DNA of 56,572 nucleotides from Bacteroidales bacterium. Lineage in GTDB: Bacteria; Bacteroidota; Bacteroidia; Bacteroidales; UBA10428. The translations under genes were made by a program, and so were the position numbers. Under the pieces are notes generated by a model. It was not told where the DNA came from. It made no database searches and worked only from the letters and a program-made list of their open reading frames with translations. Positions 30,606 to 49,513 of this stretch are shown one piece after another. Where the stretch lies: assembly GCA_016931575.1 (NCBI GenBank), contig JAFGEO010000116.1, forward strand, positions 1-56,572, in the 5' to 3' direction. Position 1 is the first letter of the stretch, and each line of letters begins with the position of its first letter.

Positions 30606-33600
30606 ATGCAAACTATAAAATCATATAAAGAATTTGAGCAGCTGCAGAAACAGCTGGCAGATGCTGCAAAAAAGACTTTCGAATCATTCGATGAGATTAT
30701 CCACGTCTGTACCGGTGGTGGCTGTATTGCCTGCGGGTCGCTACAACTGAAAGCTGAACTACAAAAAAAACTGTCTGAAAAAGGACTCGAAAAAAAAATC
30801 GGAATCAAGGCCACTGGTTGCCTGGGCCCCTGTTCCAAGGGACCAGCACTCATTCTCAGGAAGGCCGGAAGTTTTTACCAGAAAATGCAATTGGCCGATG
30901 TTGACGAATTTATAGAACAGCAACTGATAAACGGCAAACCGGTTGAACGTCTTCTGCACCATAGTGATGAAGATGGAAAATCGCAGGTTTCCGTAAAAGA
31001 CATTAAGTTTTTCAAGGAACAAAAGAAGGTAGTTCTGCGTCGCTGCGGTGAAATCGATCCCACAAGTATCGAAGATTACCTGGCAACAGGTGGTTACCAG
31101 TCGTTCGCGAAAGTCCTTGAAAAGCTTTCTCCTGAGGAAGTGATTGAAGAGATGAAGAAATCAGGCCTCCGAGGCAGAGGAGGAGCCGGATTCGCAACCT
31201 TCATGAAATGGAATTTTGCCCGTATGGAGAAATCGGAACAGAAATATATCCTCTGCAATGCCGATGAAGGTGATCCCGGAGCCTACATGGACCGCAGTAT
31301 CCTGGAAGGGGATCCGCACTGTGTTATCGAAGGGATGGCCATAGGTGCCTATACCATCGGTGCCTCACAGGGGTACATATACTGCCGTGCAGAGTACCCG
31401 CTGGCGGTTGAGCGTCTTAACAAGGCCCTTGACCAGGCCCGTAATGCAGGCATATTGGGTAAAAATATTATGGGTAGCGGATTTGACTTCGACCTGGAGA
31501 TCAGGATGGGCTCCGGCGCATTTGTCTGCGGTGAGGAAACTGCCCTGATCGCTTCCATAGAAGGTAAGCGCGGAGAACCGCGTCCCCGCCCTCCGTTCCC
31601 GACAACAGCAGGTCTTTGGGGCAAGCCCACCGTGCTGAACAATGTGGAAACCTTTGCTAACGTCAATGCCATCATTGAAATGGGTGGCGATAAGTTTGCA
31701 GAGAATGGAACCGAAAAAAGTAAAGGAACCAAGATCTTTGCCCTTGCGGGTGCCATCAGGAATTCAGGACTTTTTGAAGTCCCGGTGGGCACCACACTTG
31801 GCGACCTGGTATATGATATCGGAGGGGGAACCAGCAGCGGAAAACCCTTCAAGGCAGCACAGATCGGCGGTCCTTCCGGTGGCTGTATCCCAAAGCAGCA
31901 CCTGAATGTCTCGCTGGATTATGAATCCCTGAACCAACTTGGCGCCATCATGGGCTCCGGTGGCCTCGTGGTTATGGATGAGGATTCCTGTATGGTGGAC
32001 GTGGCAAAATTTTTCCTCGACTTCGTACTGGAAGAGTCCTGTGGCAAATGTACCCCCTGCCGGGTTGGAACCAAAAGGATGTATGAGATCCTTGACCGTA
32101 TCACGATGGGCCTGGGTAAAGAAGGTGATATCGAGAAACTGGAAGAACTCGGTGAGTGGATCCGTAAGACTTCCCTCTGCGGACTAGGCCAGTCGGCCCC
32201 AAACCCCGTGCTCTCCACCATTCGCTATTTCCGTCACGAATATGAGGCACATATTAAAGACAAGAGCTGCCCGTCCGGGGTTTGCGCACATATTGTACGC
32301 GCCCCCTGTCAGAGTGCATGCCCTGCCAATGTAGATGTTCCCGGCTTTGTTTCCCTTGTGGGTGAAAAAAGATATGCCGAAGCCCTTCAGCTTCACCGCG
32401 ATCGTAATCCCTTTGCTGCAGTATGTGCCAGGGTTTGCTTCCACAGCTGCGAAATAAAATGCCGACGCTCTACGCTGGATGAACCTGTTTCCATCCGTGG
32501 CGTGAAGCGCTACATGGCCGATCAGGAAATCACCGTTCAGCTGCCCGAAATGCGGGAGAATGAAGAAAATTCCAAACGCAAGGTGGCGATTATCGGTGCC
32601 GGCCCTGCCGGACTTTCCTGTGCCTACTTCCTGGCGCGCCTTGGTTACAAACCAAAGATCTTTGAGGCAGAACACCGCCCCGGAGGTATGCTCGTACAAA
32701 CCATCCCTGCCTATCGTTTGCCCAGGGAAATCCTGGCCCGCGAGATCAGGATGATTGAAAATATGGGCGTAGATATCTTCACCAATATGAAGTTGGGGCG
32801 TGACTTCACCCTTGACAGTCTGAAGGACGAGGGCTTTGAAGTCGTATTTATCGGCGTCGGGGCGCCGGTTGGTATCAAACCCAACATTCCCGGAATTGAG
32901 AATGAGGGAGTGGTAGACGCACTTAAATTCCTCCAGACCTATAATCTCCGGGGATCCGTAAAGGTTGGAAAGAAGATCATTGTGGTAGGAGGAGGTAATG
33001 CTGCCATCGATGCAGCCCGGACAGCTATCCGTCTGGGTGCCGAAAGTGTGGATATCGTTTACAGGCGTACCCGCGAAGAAATGCCGGCCTGGGCTGAAGA
33101 AATCGATGCGGCTACCGATGAAGGGATCAGACTGCGCACGCTGACCAACCCAAAAGAGATCCTGGCAACCGGCGGCAAGGTGAGCGGAATGAATTGCACT
33201 ACCATGAAACTCGGTTCCTTCGATTCCAGCGGACGTCGCCGCCCTGTTGAAAGCGACGAGCAATTTACCATCGAAGCCGACCAGGTAATCGTCGCTACAG
33301 GCCAGACTCTTGAATGTGACGCCCTGATCGGGGGCTACAAACTCACCGGAGAGAAAGCTTCGCAGATAGCAGTCGACAGTCAGAGCGGACAAACCTCCGT
33401 AAGCTGGATCTTTGCCGGAGGTGATGCTGTCAACGGCCCAGCTTCCGTCATCGAGGCCGTGGGTAGTGGAGAACGTGCCGCTGTTGGTATCGACCAGTAC
33501 CTGACCGGTAATACGGAGAAAGCCTTCTGGAGGGAGGAAAAGAAGGTAGATACCTTCTTTGATCCTGATGCAGAAGCCGTGCTTTACCCACGCGTTCATC

Positions 33601-33722
33601 AGCGCTTGCTGGAAGCTGACCGCAGAAAGCACAACTTTGATGAAGTAGAACTGGTATGGTCTGAAGGCGAAGCCGTTCGCCAGGCAAAAAGATGCCTGCG
33701 CTGTGACTATGGTAAATGTTAA
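30606..33722 (+). CDS. hydB: [FeFe]-hydrogenase subunit HydB fused to a GltD/NfnB-like flavoprotein
   Basis: This is a 1038-residue electron-bifurcation subunit. Domains: thioredoxin-like [2Fe-2S] domain (residues 30-120; Cys35, Cys40, Cys72, Cys76). NuoF core with FMN and NAD(H) sites (about 135-540; GLRGRGGAGFATFMKW at 188, CNADEGDPGAYMDR at 217) and a [4Fe-4S] cluster by Cys479, Cys482, Cys485 and Cys525. A GltD-type region follows from about 565: Cys568/572/607/611/619 for Fe-S clusters, a first GxGxxG at 664-669 (IIGAGPAGLSCAYFLARLG), a second Rossmann motif VVGGGNAAIDAARTA and a late FAGGDAVNGPASVIEAVGSG FAD motif. It ends CLRCDYGKC. Ordinary HydB is ~600-630 residues and ends in a two-cluster ferredoxin domain; here that is replaced by ~470 residues. 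This suggests an added NAD(P)H site. Confidence 0.9.
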   Translation: MQTIKSYKEFEQLQKQLADAAKKTFESFDEIIHVCTGGGCIACGSLQLKAELQKKLSEKGLEKKIGIKATGCLGPCSKGPALILRKAGSFYQKMQLADVDEFIEQQLINGKPVERLLHHSDEDGKSQVSVKDIKFFKEQKKVVLRRCGEIDPTSIEDYLATGGYQSFAKVLEKLSPEEVIEEMKKSGLRGRGGAGFATFMKWNFARMEKSEQKYILCNADEGDPGAYMDRSILEGDPHCVIEGMAIGAYTIGASQGYIYCRAEYPLAVERLNKALDQARNAGILGKNIMGSGFDFDLEIRMGSGAFVCGEETALIASIEGKRGEPRPRPPFPTTAGLWGKPTVLNNVETFANVNAIIEMGGDKFAENGTEKSKGTKIFALAGAIRNSGLFEVPVGTTLGDLVYDIGGGTSSGKPFKAAQIGGPSGGCIPKQHLNVSLDYESLNQLGAIMGSGGLVVMDEDSCMVDVAKFFLDFVLEESCGKCTPCRVGTKRMYEILDRITMGLGKEGDIEKLEELGEWIRKTSLCGLGQSAPNPVLSTIRYFRHEYEAHIKDKSCPSGVCAHIVRAPCQSACPANVDVPGFVSLVGEKRYAEALQLHRDRNPFAAVCARVCFHSCEIKCRRSTLDEPVSIRGVKRYMADQEITVQLPEMRENEENSKRKVAIIGAGPAGLSCAYFLARLGYKPKIFEAEHRPGGMLVQTIPAYRLPREILAREIRMIENMGVDIFTNMKLGRDFTLDSLKDEGFEVVFIGVGAPVGIKPNIPGIENEGVVDALKFLQTYNLRGSVKVGKKIIVVGGGNAAIDAARTAIRLGAESVDIVYRRTREEMPAWAEEIDAATDEGIRLRTLTNPKEILATGGKVSGMNCTTMKLGSFDSSGRRRPVESDEQFTIEADQVIVATGQTLECDALIGGYKLTGEKASQIAVDSQSGQTSVSWIFAGGDAVNGPASVIEAVGSGERAAVGIDQYLTGNTEKAFWREEKKVDTFFDPDAEAVLYPRVHQRLLEADRRKHNFDEVELVWSEGEAVRQAKRCLRCDYGKC

Positions 33723-33744: not shown

Positions 33745-35511
33745 ATGATGATTAATCTTACAATAAATAATGTCCCTGTTCAGGTTAAAGAAGGATCCAC
33801 CATTCTTCAGGCTGCCCAGAAAGCCGGAATAAAAATTCCAACCCTTTGTCATGTTGAGAATACCATCCCGAAAGGAGCCTGCCGTGTTTGCATGGTACAG
33901 GTGGAAGGGGCACGCGGCCTCATGGCCTCCTGTTCCGCTCCTGCTGCCGAAGGCATGAAAGTGATCAGCAACTCACGGGAGGTCCGTGAAGCCAGGAAGT
34001 TTGTCGTGGAAATGCTGATTTCCGAACACTGCGGTGATTGCAAAACATGCGTCCGTAATAACGACTGTGAGCTTCAGCAGCTGGCCTTTGAAATGGGCAT
34101 CGAATCGATTGCCTGGGAAGGCGAAACCCTGAAATCTGTTATCGATACCTCTACCCACGCTCTCGTACGCGACTCTGGTAAATGCATCAAGTGCAGAAGG
34201 TGTGTGGATGTATGCAGCGAGATCCAGGGCGTTGGCTCACTCTTTGCCCAGGGACGTGGTTTTGAATCGAAGATAGGCCCTGCCTTCGATTCCAACCTCG
34301 CGGATGTTGTCTGTGTACAATGCGGACAATGCAGTGCAGTATGCCCGGTCGGCGCTATTACAGAGAAAGAGCATATACACTATGTATGGGATGCCCTCGA
34401 TGATCCGAAAAAATTTGTTGTTGTCCAGACGGCTCCGGCCATTCGTGCCGCCCTCGGCGAATGCTTTGGTTATGAGCCGGGGACGCTGGTGACCGGGAAA
34501 ATGACCACCGCGCTCCGCCACCTGGGATTCGACAAGATCTTCGATACAAATTTTGCTGCCGACCTCACCATCATGGAAGAGGGAACCGAACTGCTGATGC
34601 GCCTCAAAAAAGCCCTGGTCGACAAAGAACAGGTTGCCCTGCCCCAGTATTCGTCCTGCTCTCCGGGATGGATCAAGTATGTGGAGTATTTTTATCCGGA
34701 TATGCTCGATAATATCTCTACCTGTAAGTCACCACAGCAGATGTTTGGTGTTTTGGCAAAAACCTACTATGCCGACAAGGTGGGCATCGACCCGAAAGAT
34801 GTGGTGGTAGTATCGATCATGCCATGCACGGCGAAGAAATTTGAGTGTGCCCGCCCGGAAATGACTGACAGCGGGTTCCAGGATGTAGACTTCGTACTCA
34901 CCACCCGTGAGTTGGGCCGCATGATCCAGCAGGCTGGCATCGACTTTAAAAATCTGCCCGATAGCGAGATGGATGCTCCAATGGGCATAAGCTCCGGAGC
35001 CGCCGACATCTTTGCCAATACAGGAGGTGTTATGGAAGCTGCCGTTCGTACAGCCTACGAACTGGTAACCGGAAGAGAACTGCCAACTGAAATGCTTCAT
35101 ATAGAGCCACTCATGGGACTTGAAGGTGTGAAGAAAGCCTCCCTCAGGATTGAAGGCACACTCCCCGGATGGGAATTTCTGGAAGGTGTAGAGTTGAAAG
35201 TAGGTGTTGCCCATGGTCTTTCGAATGCGAAGAAGATCATCGAAGCCTCACGTGCCGGTGAAGAGTTCCACTTCATTGAAGTGATGACCTGCCCCGGAGG
35301 ATGTATCGGCGGAGGCGGCCAGCCACGTTACACGACCGATGAAGTGCGCAAAGCGAGAATTGCTGCCATCTACAAGGAAGATGAAGGTAAAGAGCTAAGG
35401 AAATCCCATATGAATCCCGAGATAGAACAGCTCTATAAAGAATTCCTGGAAAAGCCCATCAGCCATCTCTCACACAAGTTGTTGCACACTGAATATGTAA
35501 GCAGAAATTAA
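33745..35511 (+). CDS. hydA: [FeFe]-hydrogenase catalytic subunit HydA, group A3 type
   Basis: This is the H2-forming or H2-oxidising subunit, 588 residues. The N-terminal [2Fe-2S] domain has Cys35, Cys46, Cys49 and Cys63. The His-ligated [4Fe-4S] has His95, Cys99, Cys102 and Cys108. Two ferredoxin-type clusters follow (Cys147/150/153/157 and Cys190/193/196/200). The H-cluster domain has all four cysteines: L1 SSCSPGW (Cys305), L2 MPCTAKK (Cys361) and L3 EVMTCPGGCIGGGGQP (Cys516, Cys520). The Ser after the L1 Cys, and the company of HydB/HydC, place it in the NAD-linked bifurcating group A3. No hydE, hydF or hydG maturase is in the window. A strong terminator follows. Confidence 0.95.
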   Translation: MMINLTINNVPVQVKEGSTILQAAQKAGIKIPTLCHVENTIPKGACRVCMVQVEGARGLMASCSAPAAEGMKVISNSREVREARKFVVEMLISEHCGDCKTCVRNNDCELQQLAFEMGIESIAWEGETLKSVIDTSTHALVRDSGKCIKCRRCVDVCSEIQGVGSLFAQGRGFESKIGPAFDSNLADVVCVQCGQCSAVCPVGAITEKEHIHYVWDALDDPKKFVVVQTAPAIRAALGECFGYEPGTLVTGKMTTALRHLGFDKIFDTNFAADLTIMEEGTELLMRLKKALVDKEQVALPQYSSCSPGWIKYVEYFYPDMLDNISTCKSPQQMFGVLAKTYYADKVGIDPKDVVVVSIMPCTAKKFECARPEMTDSGFQDVDFVLTTRELGRMIQQAGIDFKNLPDSEMDAPMGISSGAADIFANTGGVMEAAVRTAYELVTGRELPTEMLHIEPLMGLEGVKKASLRIEGTLPGWEFLEGVELKVGVAHGLSNAKKIIEASRAGEEFHFIEVMTCPGGCIGGGGQPRYTTDEVRKARIAAIYKEDEGKELRKSHMNPEIEQLYKEFLEKPISHLSHKLLHTEYVSRN

Positions 35512-39235: not shown

Positions 39236-39724
39236 TTATTCTTTATAGGGAAGCCCGGTATGAAACTGCTTTGTGATATCATCAATGATCATAATGATAT
39301 AGCTCTCCTGCCTGAACTTAAAAAAGCGGGTGGAAAACTGCAGGTGCTTATCTACCTTATGACCATTTTTATCGAAAAACGGGCGGAAAATATGATCCTT
39401 ATAAACGTTTTCCCTATTCAGATAGGTTTCCAGCGCCGCTTCCCTGAGCTCACAGGTGTCACAATGGGAAGTTGTTCCACAATCTTTGGCCTCCTCAATG
39501 GAATATGCGCAACCAATAGCCTCTCCACAGCGGACATATAGCAAATCCTCGTTTTCCCGGTTAGAGAAGATCGTCTTCAGGGCATCGTTATATGCCTGCA
39601 ACTCCATGTTGTTATTCAGCAGCAGTATGCAGCTGCTCAGGCTGTTCATAATAAGGTTCAGGAAATCACTGGAAGCACTCAGGTGTTCAAAACTGGTATT
39701 GGTCAGGGAGATCTCACTTTTCAT
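39236..39724 (-). CDS. Stand-alone PAS-like sensor with a conserved cysteine cluster
   Basis: The 162-residue protein is a single PAS-like domain (LIMNSLSSCILLLNNNMELQ, then AYNDALKTIFSN, ending SYIIMIIDDIT). A cysteine-rich insert has Cys66, Cys72, Cys82, Cys88 and Cys91 (RCGEAIGCAYSI, DCGTTSHCDTC). Such inserts occur in PAS domains that appear to bind metal or respond to thiol redox state. No output domain is attached. The downstream partner is not encoded in the same operon, but the next upstream gene on this strand is a histidine kinase (105 bases away), so it may feed that pathway. The function is inferred. Confidence 0.68.
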   Translation of the reverse strand: MKSEISLTNTSFEHLSASSDFLNLIMNSLSSCILLLNNNMELQAYNDALKTIFSNRENEDLLYVRCGEAIGCAYSIEEAKDCGTTSHCDTCELREAALETYLNRENVYKDHIFRPFFDKNGHKVDKHLQFSTRFFKFRQESYIIMIIDDITKQFHTGLPYKE

Positions 39725-45383: not shown

Positions 45384-46577
45384 TTATACGTAAGTGATCT
45401 TTACTTTTTTCAGGAATTTCTCCTCGAGGAGGAGAGCTATCCTTCTGACAACGGTACGGCGGATCTCCACGTCCATTCCGGATTCCGGATCCTGATGAGC
45501 CAGGTTTATTCTTGTACCTATCAGAAACTGGATCTCATCAGACTGGAGAATCAGCTTGATTACTTCATCGGCAGGGCCACGACCCAGTACAGACTTATTG
45601 GTGAATTTCCTGAGGATGTTTTCTACCTTACTGAGGGTAAGGATACCCTCTGTATAGAGGTCAACGCCTTCCAGAAAGTTTATTGGAGGTAGTTCAGGAT
45701 CCATAAAATCCTGTCCATCCTTCACTTCAAGTTTCAGCTCCCTTGAAAGGATGTCCCCGGTAGTAGCCCCCATGACAATTTTCATTCCTTTGAAATCGCG
45801 CACCCGCTCAGCCATAAGCCGATCGTTTCGCTTTTCATAGGGTGGGCCTGTGGTGATGAGCAGCTCGCGGGGTTCCCGAAAAAAGATAATACCACATGAG
45901 GTATCATCTTTCGCCTGAAACCCGTCGTTTCGGTGAGCATGGTTGATGATCCGGTCTGCCAGTTCCCGGGCAGATATCTGGGATTTTCTTTTTACCATAT
46001 CAATAGCAAACCGGGCAACGTTATCATTCCCCCATCCAAAGGGGAATTGGGGAGTTCCCAAACCCGACTGGGCAACACCGTCCGTGGTAAAAATCAGCCG
46101 GTCGCCCTTTTTTGCCTGAAAAACGGTGGTTCTGAGTTTCTTTCCTTTATTGCACTCACCCTGGATATCGAGAATATTACGTTCCAGTTCCACCACCTGC
46201 TTATCCCGGATCAGGATGCATTCCGGATTATCGTATTCAAGGATATGGGTTTTACCATCATAATCCACTTCAATGATGGTGAAAGTGGAATAGTTCATCT
46301 TCCGTTCGCTGCATTCCGGAAGGGTTTTCATAATAATTTCGGCTGTTTTTTCCGGCTCGCGGTGCTCACGCGTAAAATTCAGTGCCATGGTGGCTGTCAG
46401 CGTGGCCAGTACGCTGGCTTTCACTCCATGCCCCATGCCATCGGAAAGCACCAGGACAATACGTCCTTCTTCCTTAATCTTCCCTGAGAGAAAGACATCC
46501 CCACAAATGCGTTCGATACCATGGTTTTTTTGCTGACAATCCACCTCGATGAAAAAACGATCCTGCTTAACCTCCAT
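45384..46577 (-). CDS. SpoIIE-type PP2C serine/threonine phosphatase, output of the redox sensor operon
   Basis: The 397-residue protein has an N-terminal PP2C/SpoIIE domain (1-230) with the metal-binding Asp27 (ICGDVFLSG), Asp46-Gly47 (LSDGMGHGVKASVLA), IFTTDGVAQSG and DDTSCGIIF. A C-terminal region of about 160 residues follows (RLMAERVRDFKGMKIVMGAT, VDLYTEGILTLSKVENIL) of unknown fold. It starts two bases after the stop of the hydrogenase-like sensor gene, so the two are coupled. PP2C phosphatases are known neighbours of sensory [FeFe]-hydrogenases. I infer that it dephosphorylates an unknown regulator in response to the sensor. Confidence 0.88.
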   Translation of the reverse strand: MEVKQDRFFIEVDCQQKNHGIERICGDVFLSGKIKEEGRIVLVLSDGMGHGVKASVLATLTATMALNFTREHREPEKTAEIIMKTLPECSERKMNYSTFTIIEVDYDGKTHILEYDNPECILIRDKQVVELERNILDIQGECNKGKKLRTTVFQAKKGDRLIFTTDGVAQSGLGTPQFPFGWGNDNVARFAIDMVKRKSQISARELADRIINHAHRNDGFQAKDDTSCGIIFFREPRELLITTGPPYEKRNDRLMAERVRDFKGMKIVMGATTGDILSRELKLEVKDGQDFMDPELPPINFLEGVDLYTEGILTLSKVENILRKFTNKSVLGRGPADEVIKLILQSDEIQFLIGTRINLAHQDPESGMDVEIRRTVVRRIALLLEEKFLKKVKITYV

Positions 46578-46579
46578 GA

Positions 46580-48451
46580 CTATCGATTGTTATCGGATGA
46601 TTTATTTTTATCCTGTCCGTAAAAATTGATAACAGAATTCAGCATCTTTTCGATATCACTGGCGCCTTCGCCCAGCAAGAATCCAATCTGCTGAACCATT
46701 TCCAGGTTTTTATCAATTACATCGGAAACCCTTCTGATCACTTCGGCTTTCTGAACTTCCGGAGCCCTCATATCGCGGACGATTCCGCCGGCGATCTTAT
46801 TACTAATAATGGGGAATATCGAAAGGTTCAACAATTCTCCTTTATGGAGTACATCTTTTGACTCCAGGGCTTCCGAATTTGAGATTACATACGAGAAAAG
46901 GTTAGATACTTCTGTTGGAACAAACTTTTTCAGGTCTGCACCTTCAAGCCCCGGGACCACCTCATTGATTTCTTCAGCCTCTTCCCCGATGATTTTGCAG
47001 AATGTATCGTTGGCCTTGACAATCTTCATCTGATAATCGACAATGACAATACCCGCCCGCAGCTTGTTAAGCATCGCATTTGTCAGCTCAGAAGCCTGGT
47101 ATGCTGAGTCGTGCTCGGTGCGGAGTTTATCCTTGGCGACTTTCAGTTCTTTCCGGGTCTGGACAAGTTTTTCATTAAGTTCCTTAAGGGTTTCGTTAGA
47201 GCTTTTGGTATGCTTGATGGAATAAACGGAGCACATTTCGGGAATGATAATCCCCTTGGCCATATCGACGGCAAACTCACGGCATGAGCCGTAGCCGCAC
47301 TGGTTACAGTTTACGGCATCGTCAGGTTCTTTTCCCAGAGTCTTCAAAGCTTTCCTGACCTTGTCGATCGGTGGTTCGGGGATACGCTGATCATTGGATT
47401 TGAACTTGCGGGTAATTTTCAGGTTACTGTACCGCTCAAGATCATCGTACCATTCAGCACGGAAAAAATTTGTAATCCGCTTATTGGCATATTTGATTAC
47501 CAGGTGTTCCTTAAGCAGGTGATTTCCTTTGGTGGTAAGACCGGGTCCTGAAAGTGAGTTCCCATACATCACATGCAGGTGACGGTGGATAACCTTTACA
47601 TTACTCTCAAACTCCTCGATGGATTCGATCATGCTCTTTTTACCTTCTACACAAACCACGTGTGTTGTCAGCAGGTTTTCATCGATATCTGCTGCCTGGA
47701 TCAGCCCGTTTCGTATTGGAAACAGGGATCCTTTAAAGCCCCTCGGCGAATCAAACTCAGAGTAATCAACCGTATTCTCATCAATGCTATTCTCCTTGAA
47801 TAGCTGCCGCAGCTCCGGGAAGGTGATGGCACAATCGATTTTCCCGTCATCATTGTAAAGAAGGATCTCATCCTTGCTGGCAATATTCGGGCCGATGTAG
47901 ATAATGGAGAGCGGGTTCTGATGTTTTTCACGGATCACCTTTGCCATGGCCACCATGGGAGATACAAAAGGTACCAGGTTATTGATCAGGTTCGGGTGAT
48001 ACTTTTCAATGAAATTAACTACCACCGGATCGCAGGAACTGATGTAATACCGCCCCTTGAAATCGCTAAAGAAAGTCATGTATTTTGTAGCGATCAGGTC
48101 GACCCCGAAGGATATTTCATAAACGTTCTGCACCCCGAGTGATTTAATCATCTGAACGAATTTCCTGTAATCTGAAATATCTTCGAACTCAGCGGCAATA
48201 CTGGGCGATATGATGGCCACCTTATGCACTTTTGAGGCCAGGATCCTTTTTGCCTCTTCTATGGATGAACGGTACTTAATGGCTTTGGGCGCACAGGACT
48301 CAATACAGGCACCACAGGAGATACAGCGATCATTCTCAAGGACGGGATGAATGCTGTTTGGAATGGCACGAATTGCTTTTACAGGGCAGATACGCACACA
48401 GGTATAGCAATTGGTGCATTTTTCAGGTTCAATATACACAAGTGGATCCAC
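46580..48451 (-). CDS. Hydrogenase-derived Fe-S/PAS redox sensor with a degenerate H-cluster site (HydS-like)
   Basis: The 623-residue protein has the domain order of group C sensory [FeFe]-hydrogenases. Two [4Fe-4S] ferredoxin motifs (Cys12/15/18/22 and Cys43/46/49/53); hydrogenase large-subunit domain (about 75-330); an extra [4Fe-4S] motif (Cys382, 385, 390, 407: NCNQCGYGSC); a coiled coil (411-450); a PAS domain (about 455-565). In functional relatives the H-cluster is held by L1 SSCxP, L2 GPC and L3 CEGC. Here L1 keeps Cys140 (SSCDPVVVNFIEKY), but L2 reads IGPNIASK (Asn189) and L3 reads YGNSLSGPG (Tyr296, Ser299). Three of four ligands are lost, so an H-cluster cannot form by the known scheme. 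It is co-transcribed with the [2Fe-2S] protein and PP2C phosphatase. Confidence 0.88.
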   Translation of the reverse strand: MDPLVYIEPEKCTNCYTCVRICPVKAIRAIPNSIHPVLENDRCISCGACIESCAPKAIKYRSSIEEAKRILASKVHKVAIISPSIAAEFEDISDYRKFVQMIKSLGVQNVYEISFGVDLIATKYMTFFSDFKGRYYISSCDPVVVNFIEKYHPNLINNLVPFVSPMVAMAKVIREKHQNPLSIIYIGPNIASKDEILLYNDDGKIDCAITFPELRQLFKENSIDENTVDYSEFDSPRGFKGSLFPIRNGLIQAADIDENLLTTHVVCVEGKKSMIESIEEFESNVKVIHRHLHVMYGNSLSGPGLTTKGNHLLKEHLVIKYANKRITNFFRAEWYDDLERYSNLKITRKFKSNDQRIPEPPIDKVRKALKTLGKEPDDAVNCNQCGYGSCREFAVDMAKGIIIPEMCSVYSIKHTKSSNETLKELNEKLVQTRKELKVAKDKLRTEHDSAYQASELTNAMLNKLRAGIVIVDYQMKIVKANDTFCKIIGEEAEEINEVVPGLEGADLKKFVPTEVSNLFSYVISNSEALESKDVLHKGELLNLSIFPIISNKIAGGIVRDMRAPEVQKAEVIRRVSDVIDKNLEMVQQIGFLLGEGASDIEKMLNSVINFYGQDKNKSSDNNR

Positions 48452-48489: not shown

Positions 48490-48741
48490 CTACAGATCCC
48501 CCAGACCTTCTTTCAGATATTGCTCAATGTTTTCAGGTGTTACCTGATGAAACATCCGGGTTCCTATCATCATATTAGGTCCGTTACTGCAATGATCAAA
48601 GCAATGATCTCCTTTAAATTCTACTTTATCAGCCAGGTTTTTCCTTTCGATAAATTTTCGAATCATCGGAATAAGTTCCTTGTTACCCCTGGCAAAACAG
48701 GAGCTTCCAAGACATAATATTACCTTCCGTTTGCGTAGCAT
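48490..48741 (-). CDS. Thioredoxin-like [2Fe-2S] ferredoxin
   Basis: The 83-residue protein is one thioredoxin-like [2Fe-2S] domain with Cys10 and Cys15 (LCLGSSCFARGN) and Cys47 and Cys51 (HCFDHCSNGPNMMIG), like the isolated C-terminal domain of NuoE or the N-terminal domain of HydB. It is the first gene of the operon with the hydrogenase-derived sensor (38 bases before it) and the phosphatase. Small proteins of this kind accompany [FeFe]-hydrogenase clusters in other anaerobes. It probably shuttles electrons to the sensor. Confidence 0.88.
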   Translation of the reverse strand: MLRKRKVILCLGSSCFARGNKELIPMIRKFIERKNLADKVEFKGDHCFDHCSNGPNMMIGTRMFHQVTPENIEQYLKEGLGDL

Positions 48742-48877
48742 CTTGCATTATTATAGCTGGTATGAATATAGGTAATTTTGTCATTGTATAAAAACCTGTA
48801 GATAACAGAACTTGATACATTGCAGAAAAATGTCGTTATTTACTAAATATGAAATCAACAGCTCAGAAGAACGAGTC

Positions 48878-49513
48878 ATGAGAATCCTACCTGAAAAAAC
48901 GGTTGAAAGGCTGAGTGAATACCGCCGCTCACTCTACGAATGCCTCGATGAAGGGAAATCACATATCTTTTCCCACGAACTGGCAGATATCCATAACATT
49001 ACTGCTGTGCAGGTTCGCAGGGATATTATGTTTATCGGTTACTCTACTTCCAACAGGAAAGGCTACCATGTTGAGGAACTCATAAGTGTAATCGGTAAGA
49101 TAATTGATCCCCAGGAAGTATATAATGTTGCCGTAATTGGTCTGGGGAATTTAGGAAAGGCAATATCTACCTACTTTATCGGAAAGCGTCCCCAGCTAAA
49201 CCTGGTGGCCACCTTTGACCTCGACCCAAAGAAAATCGGAAATGAGATCAATGGTGTGAAATGTTACTCCATCGACAGGCTCAGGGAGCTCATCATCAAC
49301 AAAAACATCACGGTTGCCATTCTAACCGTTCCGGTATATTCCGCAAAAGAGATGGCAAAATCTCTGGTTCAGGCCGGAATCAAGGGAATACTGAATTTTA
49401 CTACGGTAACCCTCAACGTTCCGGAAGATATTTACCTGGAGGAATATGACATGATTACTTCCATGGAGAAGGTAGCCTACTTTGTAAAGAACCGGAAAAA
49501 GAAAAGAAAGTAA
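48878..49513 (+). CDS. rex: Redox-sensing transcriptional repressor Rex
   Basis: Rex binds DNA when NAD+ is high and releases it when NADH rises. The ATG at 48878 gives the usual start (MRILPEKTVERLSEYRRSL); an upstream ATG at 48812 would add 22 atypical residues. The winged helix is at 5-75 (SHELADIHNITAVQVRRDIM, then FIGYS). The Rossmann NADH site has GLGNLG at 88-93 and a following acidic LVATFDLDPKKIG. The C-terminal helix for domain swapping ends in a lysine-rich tail. 211 residues is normal. It is divergent from the redox sensor operon. A matching operator lies before the hydrogenase operon. Confidence 0.95.
   Translation: MRILPEKTVERLSEYRRSLYECLDEGKSHIFSHELADIHNITAVQVRRDIMFIGYSTSNRKGYHVEELISVIGKIIDPQEVYNVAVIGLGNLGKAISTYFIGKRPQLNLVATFDLDPKKIGNEINGVKCYSIDRLRELIINKNITVAILTVPVYSAKEMAKSLVQAGIKGILNFTTVTLNVPEDIYLEEYDMITSMEKVAYFVKNRKKKRK

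Follow-up and report, generated by a model that had tools for sequence, protein, structure and literature searches.

A conserved HydS-like protein without H-cluster ligands in Bacteroidales: a candidate iron-sulfur redox sensor

What becomes of a sensory [FeFe]-hydrogenase when the residues that hold its H-cluster are gone? The question is raised by a gene on the reverse strand of contig JAFGEO010000116.1 from a Bacteroidales bacterium (assembly GCA_016931575.1, GTDB lineage UBA10428); the whole analysed stretch of 56,572 nucleotides is called the window below. The product is a HydS-like protein in which the loss of H-cluster ligands is complete, the accessory cluster cysteines are retained, the sequence is under constraint, and the operon is conserved. 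An initial annotation, made from the sequence alone, had counted three lost cysteines and proposed a hydrogenase fold re-used as a redox or ligand sensor; the number of lost ligands proved to be four. Statements about the window's family refer to an alignment of 21 distinct proteins, one of them truncated at 526 residues. The parts of the gene on which the argument rests are the following.

46580-48451, reverse strand: gene of the HydS-like protein, 623 residues, GTG start at 48451, TAG stop at 46580-46582
48023-48040, reverse strand: loop L1, residues 138-143, with Cys140 at the proton-transfer place and Asp141 (codon 48029-48031) at the ligand place
47873-47893, reverse strand: loop L2, residues 187-193, with Asn189 (47885-47887) instead of the ligand cysteine and the family-invariant Lys193
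47540-47572, reverse strand: loop L3, residues 294-304, without cysteine, one residue short compared with intact relatives, GPG retained
48293-48418, reverse strand: two N-terminal [4Fe-4S] motifs, residues 12-53 (Pfam Fer4), eight cysteines kept in 21/21 family proteins
47600-48223, reverse strand: hydrogenase domain Fe_hyd_lg_C, residues 77-284 (Pfam match)
47231-47308, reverse strand: Cx2Cx4Cx16C motif of the group C/D C-terminal [4Fe-4S] cluster, residues 382-407 (Cys 382, 385, 390 and 407)
46766-47065, reverse strand: PAS domain, residues 463-562, from a weak PAS_8 match and the strand/helix pattern of the model

Four missing ligands in a HydS architecture

In a HMMER alignment, the L1 segment of the window protein (isscdpvv) was matched to TSCCPAW of T. 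maritima HydA, and the ligand place occupied by Asp141 is one which we take to be that of C300 in CpI. In work on CpIII, the cysteine preceding the proline was assigned as the cubane ligand and the cysteine one earlier as the proton-transfer residue, with M225 of CpIII equivalent to G302 of CpI; variants of CpI C299 and G302 are named in PDB titles, and CpI C299 is described as a proton donor/acceptor. On the basis of the HMMER alignment and these assignments, Cys140 was equated with CpI C299, and Asp141 was placed at the ligand position. The residues that had been reported for L1, a cysteine followed by Asp, were correct; the cysteine is not a retained ligand, as it stands at the proton-transfer place, where C, F, T, Y, I, N or L occurs among the 21 family proteins. 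The replacement of the L2 cysteine by Asn189 was confirmed by alignment, and all 21 proteins have N, D, E or Q at this position.

Loop L3 reads VMYGNSLSGPG in the window and LFYCDGCLMGPG in L097, the intact orthologue of Perlabentimonas gracilis; the window loop contains no cysteine and is shorter by one residue. Strand 291-295 of the window model corresponds to strand 302-306 in the model of an intact relative (two AlphaFold models), and because the register with this preceding strand agrees in both models, Tyr296 is most likely the counterpart of the Tyr/Phe that precedes the first L3 cysteine, and Gly297 most likely takes the place of that cysteine. The earlier mapping, in which Tyr296 and Ser299 replaced the two cysteines, was thus right about their absence and probably off by one in its register; an alternative gap placement restores it, and L3 is without cysteine whatever the mapping. 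Replacement ligands among the other cysteines were rejected: Cys207, Cys267, and Cys485 vary across the family, and a cysteine at 293, in the strand ahead of the L3 loop, is found in 5/21 proteins only. Four of four ligands are lost from the window HydS, and, as had been anticipated, neither it nor any of the 21 family proteins has a ligand set for a normal H-cluster.

The remainder of the protein is that of a group C enzyme. The reading frame is uninterrupted, and matches to Fer4, Fe_hyd_lg_C (PF02906; 116.8 bits against a cut-off of 22.1), the FeS domain PF04060 (residues 381-408), and PAS_8 were found at the places expected from the architecture first proposed. The PAS_8 match is weak (residues 458-504; 22.4 bits, just above the cut-off of 21.8); together with the AlphaFold model (53-sequence alignment; mean predicted local distance difference test score, 82.7; predicted template modelling score, 0.67), in which a predicted helix (408-462) is followed by a PAS-like sheet, it agrees with the claim that this domain is retained. 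Among the 50 PDB matches listed by Foldseek, every one is an [FeFe]-hydrogenase or a complex with one, the top match being CbA5H (E = 1.3e-20). In contrast to the two N-terminal [4Fe-4S] motifs, the PF02906 domain and fold, the Cx2Cx4Cx16C motif, and the PAS domain, all of which are group C (HydS, M2f) features present in the window protein, the four cysteine ligands of the H-cluster that also characterise the group are absent (0/4 in the window protein and 0/4 in 21/21 family proteins). The window HydS also fell below the NCBIfam [FeFe]-hydrogenase cut-offs (TIGR02512, 93.4 against 405.95 bits; NF040763, 75.2 against 765; TIGR04105, 149.4 against 450). Enzymes of groups C and D are described as sharing Cx2Cx4Cx16C as their C-terminal motif, with PAS confined to group C (PMC8163306). 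Judged by its sequence, the protein had a HydS H2 sensor of the PAS type (group C) as its ancestor, but it no longer has the feature by which [FeFe]-hydrogenases are defined.

Among described proteins, TmHydS shares the two N-terminal [4Fe-4S] motifs, the hydrogenase domain, the C-terminal four-cysteine motif, the PAS domain, and a glycine two residues ahead of the L2 place (PMC8163306). By description, TmHydS keeps its ligating cysteines and takes up the [2Fe] subcluster, whereas the window HydS lacks all four, and the ligating cysteines are reported to be conserved across sensory [FeFe]-hydrogenases (PMC10055695). The group D protein TamHydS likewise has N- and C-terminal cluster motifs flanking the hydrogenase domain, but is without PAS and has an active H-cluster (PMC8163306, PMC13104023). 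The eukaryotic Nar1/IOP1/NARF proteins also lack the [2Fe] cofactor and put the hydrogenase fold to a different use; Nar1 differs in that two [4Fe-4S] sites are kept and the role is in iron-sulfur assembly (PMC12621388). In the window HydS the [4Fe-4S]H ligands themselves are gone (0/4 of the hydrogenase-domain [4Fe-4S] cysteines that mark Nar1/NARF are kept), and the neighbours are signalling genes. Within the open-licence PubMed Central literature, judged by titles and the beginnings of abstracts, no bacterial HydS without H-cluster ligands was found.

Conservation, constraint, and history of the loss

A first set of 60 genomes, the window's own included, contained 23 from the window's family, and an orthologue with 54-76% identity was found in 20 of the 22 others. 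Because the same state recurs in these 20 further genomes, the ligand loss is neither chance nor an assembly error. Invariant in 21/21 family proteins are the twelve accessory cysteines, in agreement with the statement that the other cluster ligands are kept, as well as Asp141, Lys193, Gly297, and GPG. Only two sites are at least 85% conserved both in the 21 degenerate proteins and in 58 others while differing in residue, namely 141 and 600; site 141 is Asp in 21/21 and Cys in 58/58.

Constraint was estimated from the ratio of nonsynonymous to synonymous differences (pN/pS), using 20 family proteins (the truncated one excluded) and 27 chosen relatives with their ligands kept. The median for the hydrogenase domain was 0.169 in the family (15 pairs above 72% identity) and 0.166 in the relatives (87 pairs), and the corresponding medians in the loop regions were 0.158 and 0.144; these values are rough bounds, because most of the family pairs listed have saturated synonymous divergence (dS). 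Since its pN/pS is close to that of the ligand-keeping relatives, the hydrogenase domain is not decaying. Sequencing error or decay was rejected in view of open frames in many genomes together with the low pN/pS, and the view that the gene, open in 20 further genomes, is not a decayed copy was upheld. Mean identity within the family is 0.64 in the hydrogenase domain and 0.53 in the N-terminal cluster stretch; the values across three comparison groups are 0.72-0.76 for the hydrogenase domain and 0.60-0.83 for the other stretches.

Wider relatives were drawn from a scan of a genome collection (the best 80 of 570 confirmed relatives, biased toward close kin) and from 393 genomes sampled evenly across the order, of which 119 matched at E <= 1e-100. 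From the even sample, 100 regions yielded 101 orthologues, which with 17 from the earlier sets gave 118 proteins; G092 (in-frame stops) and G069 (best match confined to query residues 4-434, 39%) stand outside this set. All four ligands are kept in 82 of the 118, and the first L3 cysteine alone is missing in 24, which carry Asn, Asp, or His there and may hold [4Fe-4S]H with a non-cysteine ligand; L144, L152-L154, L157, L160, L164, L170, and L175 are among these 24. Four show intermediate states (one without the L2 and one L3 cysteine, three with the L1 cysteine only), and eight, including six that belong to the window's family, keep no ligand. The twelve accessory cysteines are complete in 93/116 rows, the exceptions being 21 with Ser/Asn at position 15, one with Tyr390, and one truncated protein. 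In a phylum sample of 395 genomes searched at E <= 1e-150, a match was found in the window's genome alone, which says little about distant homologues because the cut-off is strict.

Trees were computed without the L1-L3 columns from sequences of the window's order and titled Bacteroidota records only; a second tree excluded proteins less than 43% identical to the window protein and near-duplicates. In the two trees, with 21 and with 20 rows, the window's family forms one clade with a Shimodaira-Hasegawa-like approximate likelihood ratio (SH-aLRT) support of 100, so that, as the tree check proposed initially had envisaged, the loss defines a clade, within Bacteroidota as judged by record titles. 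A second eroded group (support 97) comprises L058, L063, and the f8 group (L030, L108, L162, L176, L190, and L199, L108 being assigned by its tree position), with a common shortened L3 and the L2 cysteine lost. Within it, L1 carries Asp in L030, L108, and L162, a lineage with Leu at residue 189, and still Cys in L176, L190, and L199; relatives exist in which the L1 cysteine is the sole remaining ligand. Because keepers of the L1 cysteine stand beside L1-Asp members in this group, the sequences suggest a stepwise loss in which L3 and L2 went earliest and the L1 cysteine last.

The minimum number of changes on the tree is two for the L1 residue, two for the L3 deletion, and three for the L2 cysteine. 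A single clade of all L3-shortened proteins has a log-likelihood 9.6 above that of the free tree and was not rejected by the approximately unbiased (AU) test (p-AU 0.655). Forcing the L1 Asp to arise only once lowers the log-likelihood by 43.7 (p-AU 0.063), which is strained without being formally rejected; in a smaller, earlier set that lacked the Cys-keeping sisters, and from which L132, L133, L107, and L037 were removed as long branches for the AU tests, the penalty for placing the Asp proteins together was 0.9 log units (p-AU 0.479). From these trees, the L1 Cys-to-Asp change is likely, but not proven, to have occurred repeatedly. L172 is a further case of partial loss.

The operon and the rest of the genome

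Three genes surround the HydS gene in the window.

45384-46577, reverse strand: serine phosphatase of the SpoIIE/PP2C family, starting with ATG two bases past the HydS TAG, with GD, SDGMGHG, and DD motifs
48490-48741, reverse strand: thioredoxin-like [2Fe-2S] protein of 83 residues, upstream of HydS, with Cys 10, 15, 47, and 51 in 31/31 aligned proteins
48812-49513, forward strand: redox-sensing repressor Rex, divergent, the real start probably lying inside this open reading frame

The intact frame and the tight coupling to a phosphatase gene (TAG, two bases, ATG) were borne out. The phosphatase has a SpoIIE domain (66.7 bits against a Pfam cut-off of 25), and GD, SDGMGHG, and DD, the catalytic motifs of such phosphatases, are present in 31 aligned proteins, except in one that is truncated ahead of the last motif. 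A [2Fe-2S] protein is also known from a T. maritima hydrogenase operon.

The family is represented by 36 loci, which amount to 20 distinct proteins (16 second copies), and the other loci also contain repeats. All 32 family loci with enough flanking sequence have the phosphatase adjacent, and all 36 have the [2Fe-2S] gene; at the other loci, the phosphatase is adjacent in 137/163 and farther off in 16 more, and the [2Fe-2S] gene is found in 126/165. Rex lies within 800 bp in 31/31 family loci, compared to 7/151 other loci, whereas a divergent HydB within 1500 bp is found in 0/31 of the former and 107/151 of the latter (in the even sample minus four f8 loci, 55/87 have divergent HydB and 5/87 have Rex within 800 bp). 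A second HydS lies upstream in 81/115 of the other loci with 8.8 kb. In G046, the block contains HydC, HydB, HydA, a HydS-histidine kinase fusion, a response regulator, a receiver/kinase, and Rex. On the grounds of this block and of the locus counts, the window's family lacks, between the operon and Rex, the hydrogenase as well as the second sensor with its regulators.

A strict rule by which loss of the divergent operon accompanies loss of the ligands was rejected, since f8 loci keep HydB, and two of the 7/151 other loci with adjacent Rex, L066 and L086, retain all four cysteines. Divergent HydB and HydA were found in 6/6 distinct f8 loci (L126, L108, L162, L176, L190, and L199, as listed); the second HydS (HydS-kinase gene) is absent in L108, L176, and L190. 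L058 and L063 carry near-identical eroded HydS proteins (branches of 0.008 and 0.01) in different surroundings: HydB, HydA, a second HydS, and Rex lie upstream in L058, and none of these was found within 10 kb in L063. The second type of HydS adjoining HydBA (L118:10124-12151, L119-L127) keeps its ligand cysteines in 10/10 examined, and is fused to a histidine kinase in 3/3 scanned of these ten. A palindrome, TTGTTAT-AAAA-ATAACAA, which we take to resemble a Rex operator, lies between the [2Fe-2S] gene and Rex in L013, L014, and L015; looser palindromes occur upstream of HydS in L118, L123, and L176, in a search made without a chance control. A search of the window for such a palindrome found none.

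Elsewhere in the window's genome, HydA is encoded on contig C27 and in the window, and HydF and HydG on C27. Contigs C63 and C27 each encode one more HydS-like protein in which all four ligands are kept; that on C63 (L004:511-2418, reverse strand) has a four-ligand HydS-like hydrogenase domain fused to a chemoreceptor (MCP) signalling domain. Two genomes with the degenerate HydS, G017 (86% complete) and G020 (72%), gave no HydF, HydG, or HydA over the cut-off, and in G014 and G019 HydA is present, with HydF and HydG not found over the cut-off; because of assembly gaps, maturase co-occurrence is weak evidence. The group A HydA of the window (33745-35511, forward strand) reads SSCSPGW at L1, with Ser at the ligand place; TSCSPGW occurs in A. 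woodii HydA1, the structure of which is solved, and in six further HydA of the fetched loci. The HydB of the window (30606-33722, forward strand; 1038 residues) carries a fused Fer4_20/Pyr_redox_2 module reminiscent of the glutamate synthase small subunit. An open reading frame of 162 residues with several cysteines (39236-39724, reverse strand), near a histidine kinase gene, had no Pfam match.

What the protein may sense

Pairs of a PAS-HydS with an adjoining serine phosphatase gene are known from HfsB-HfsC of Thermoanaerobacterium and from R. albus. Deletion of hfsB, a PAS-HydS gene beside the serine-phosphatase-like gene hfsC, raised ethanol yield, adhE transcript, and hydrogenase activity (PMC5707799, PMC11837493), and therefore altering such a PAS-HydS/phosphatase module changes fermentation genes. 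The R. albus HydS has been proposed to report H2 together with a putative Ser/Thr phosphatase (PMC6776011), although papers disagree on whether its partner is a kinase or a phosphatase, and direct physiological evidence for the sensory role of sensory [FeFe]-hydrogenases is described as scant. Compared by description, both systems sense H2 and are linked to a catalytic hydrogenase gene, whereas the window HydS has no H-cluster site and has Rex as a neighbour.

Our preferred reading, on which we would place about an even chance, is that the window HydS is a former H2 sensor turned iron-sulfur redox sensor that drives the phosphatase. The ancestor would have worked with the thioredoxin-like [2Fe-2S] protein and the SpoIIE-family phosphatase; with the H-cluster ligand set lost, the protein would neither bind H2 nor report it through that site. 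Electrons from the ferredoxin/NADH pool, perhaps via the neighbouring [2Fe-2S] protein, would reach the HydS clusters and shift both the N-terminal clusters and the C-terminal Cx2Cx4Cx16C cluster to another oxidation state, which would be relayed via the long helix and the PAS domain to the phosphatase. The sensed quantity, most plainly, would be the redox state of ferredoxin or NAD(H). Cluster binding, redox state as the signal, and the phosphatase as the output are what we infer. Several points weigh against this reading. Without [4Fe-4S]H, the electron path from the N-terminal to the C-terminal clusters may be absent; the PAS match is weak, and the PAS domain may bind a ligand of its own. 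Constraint outside the hydrogenase domain is weaker than in the relatives (pN/pS of 0.223 against 0.140), and mean family identity is 0.51 in the linker/C-terminal cluster stretch and in the coil. The hfs and R. albus data were obtained on HydS proteins described as H2-sensing and speak to the output rather than to a new input.

The main rivals to redox sensing are a rebuilt pocket and a scaffold. In the former case, which we regard as unlikely, Asp141, the acidic or amide residue 189, and Lys193 would bind another metal ion or a small ligand and give rise to a new kind of sensing. The invariance of Asp141 (21/21), the restriction of residue 189 to D, E, N, or Q in all family proteins, and loop regions constrained no less than the rest (pN/pS 0.158) fit such a pocket, as does Asp in the second lineage (L030, L108, and L162) beside Cys-keeping sisters, for which a single origin costs 43.7 log units (p-AU 0.063). 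That lineage has Leu189, however, so that the acidic pair is not general; residue 299 is variable, mutual pairing of Asp141 and Lys193 might suffice, and a single Asp origin, which cost 0.9 in the smaller set (p-AU 0.479), is not formally rejected. Equally doubtful is the fuller proposal that a pocket emptied stepwise, in L3 and L2 and then by the L1 Cys-to-Asp change, became an acidic metal or ligand site feeding the PAS-phosphatase pathway beside Rex, an end state reached perhaps twice. A protein that no longer senses, and acts as a scaffold, as a dimer partner of an intact HydS, or as a constant activator or brake of the phosphatase, is again an improbable solution: the two other four-ligand HydS-like proteins of the genome could perform H2 sensing, and the divergent operon is lost, but invariance of the twelve accessory cysteines would be unexpected in a mere scaffold.

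Slow decay after the job was lost with the divergent hydrogenase operon is much less probable still, being largely contradicted already. It would account for the joint absence of ligands and divergent operon in the family, for the 24/118 orthologues already missing one L3 cysteine, for the loss of the HydS-kinase gene in L108, L176, and L190 of the second eroded group, and for the weaker constraint outside the hydrogenase domain. Against it stand the open frame in 20 further genomes, a hydrogenase domain constrained like that of the relatives, and the conserved operon; moreover, the second eroded group keeps divergent HydB/HydA in 6/6 distinct f8 loci, and L066 and L086 have Rex adjacent yet intact ligands. 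Assembly of an H-cluster on non-cysteine ligands, for which the Ser at one L1 ligand place in the window HydA and in A. woodii HydA1 offers a precedent, is scarcely credible here, as every one of the four places differs, the L3 loop is shorter, and Gly occupies one place in 21/21 proteins, and therefore no ligand set for the [4Fe-4S] cubane exists.

A conserved natural HydS without H-cluster ligands, together with relatives halted at each step of the loss, offers a clean test system, in which a persisting response of the PAS-phosphatase output would mean that the signal arrives via the accessory clusters and not from H2. The family would be a bacterial case of a hydrogenase fold that outlived its metal site and stayed in use for signalling, and it carries a warning for annotation, in that matches to the hydrogenase domain near HydABC are not always hydrogenases.

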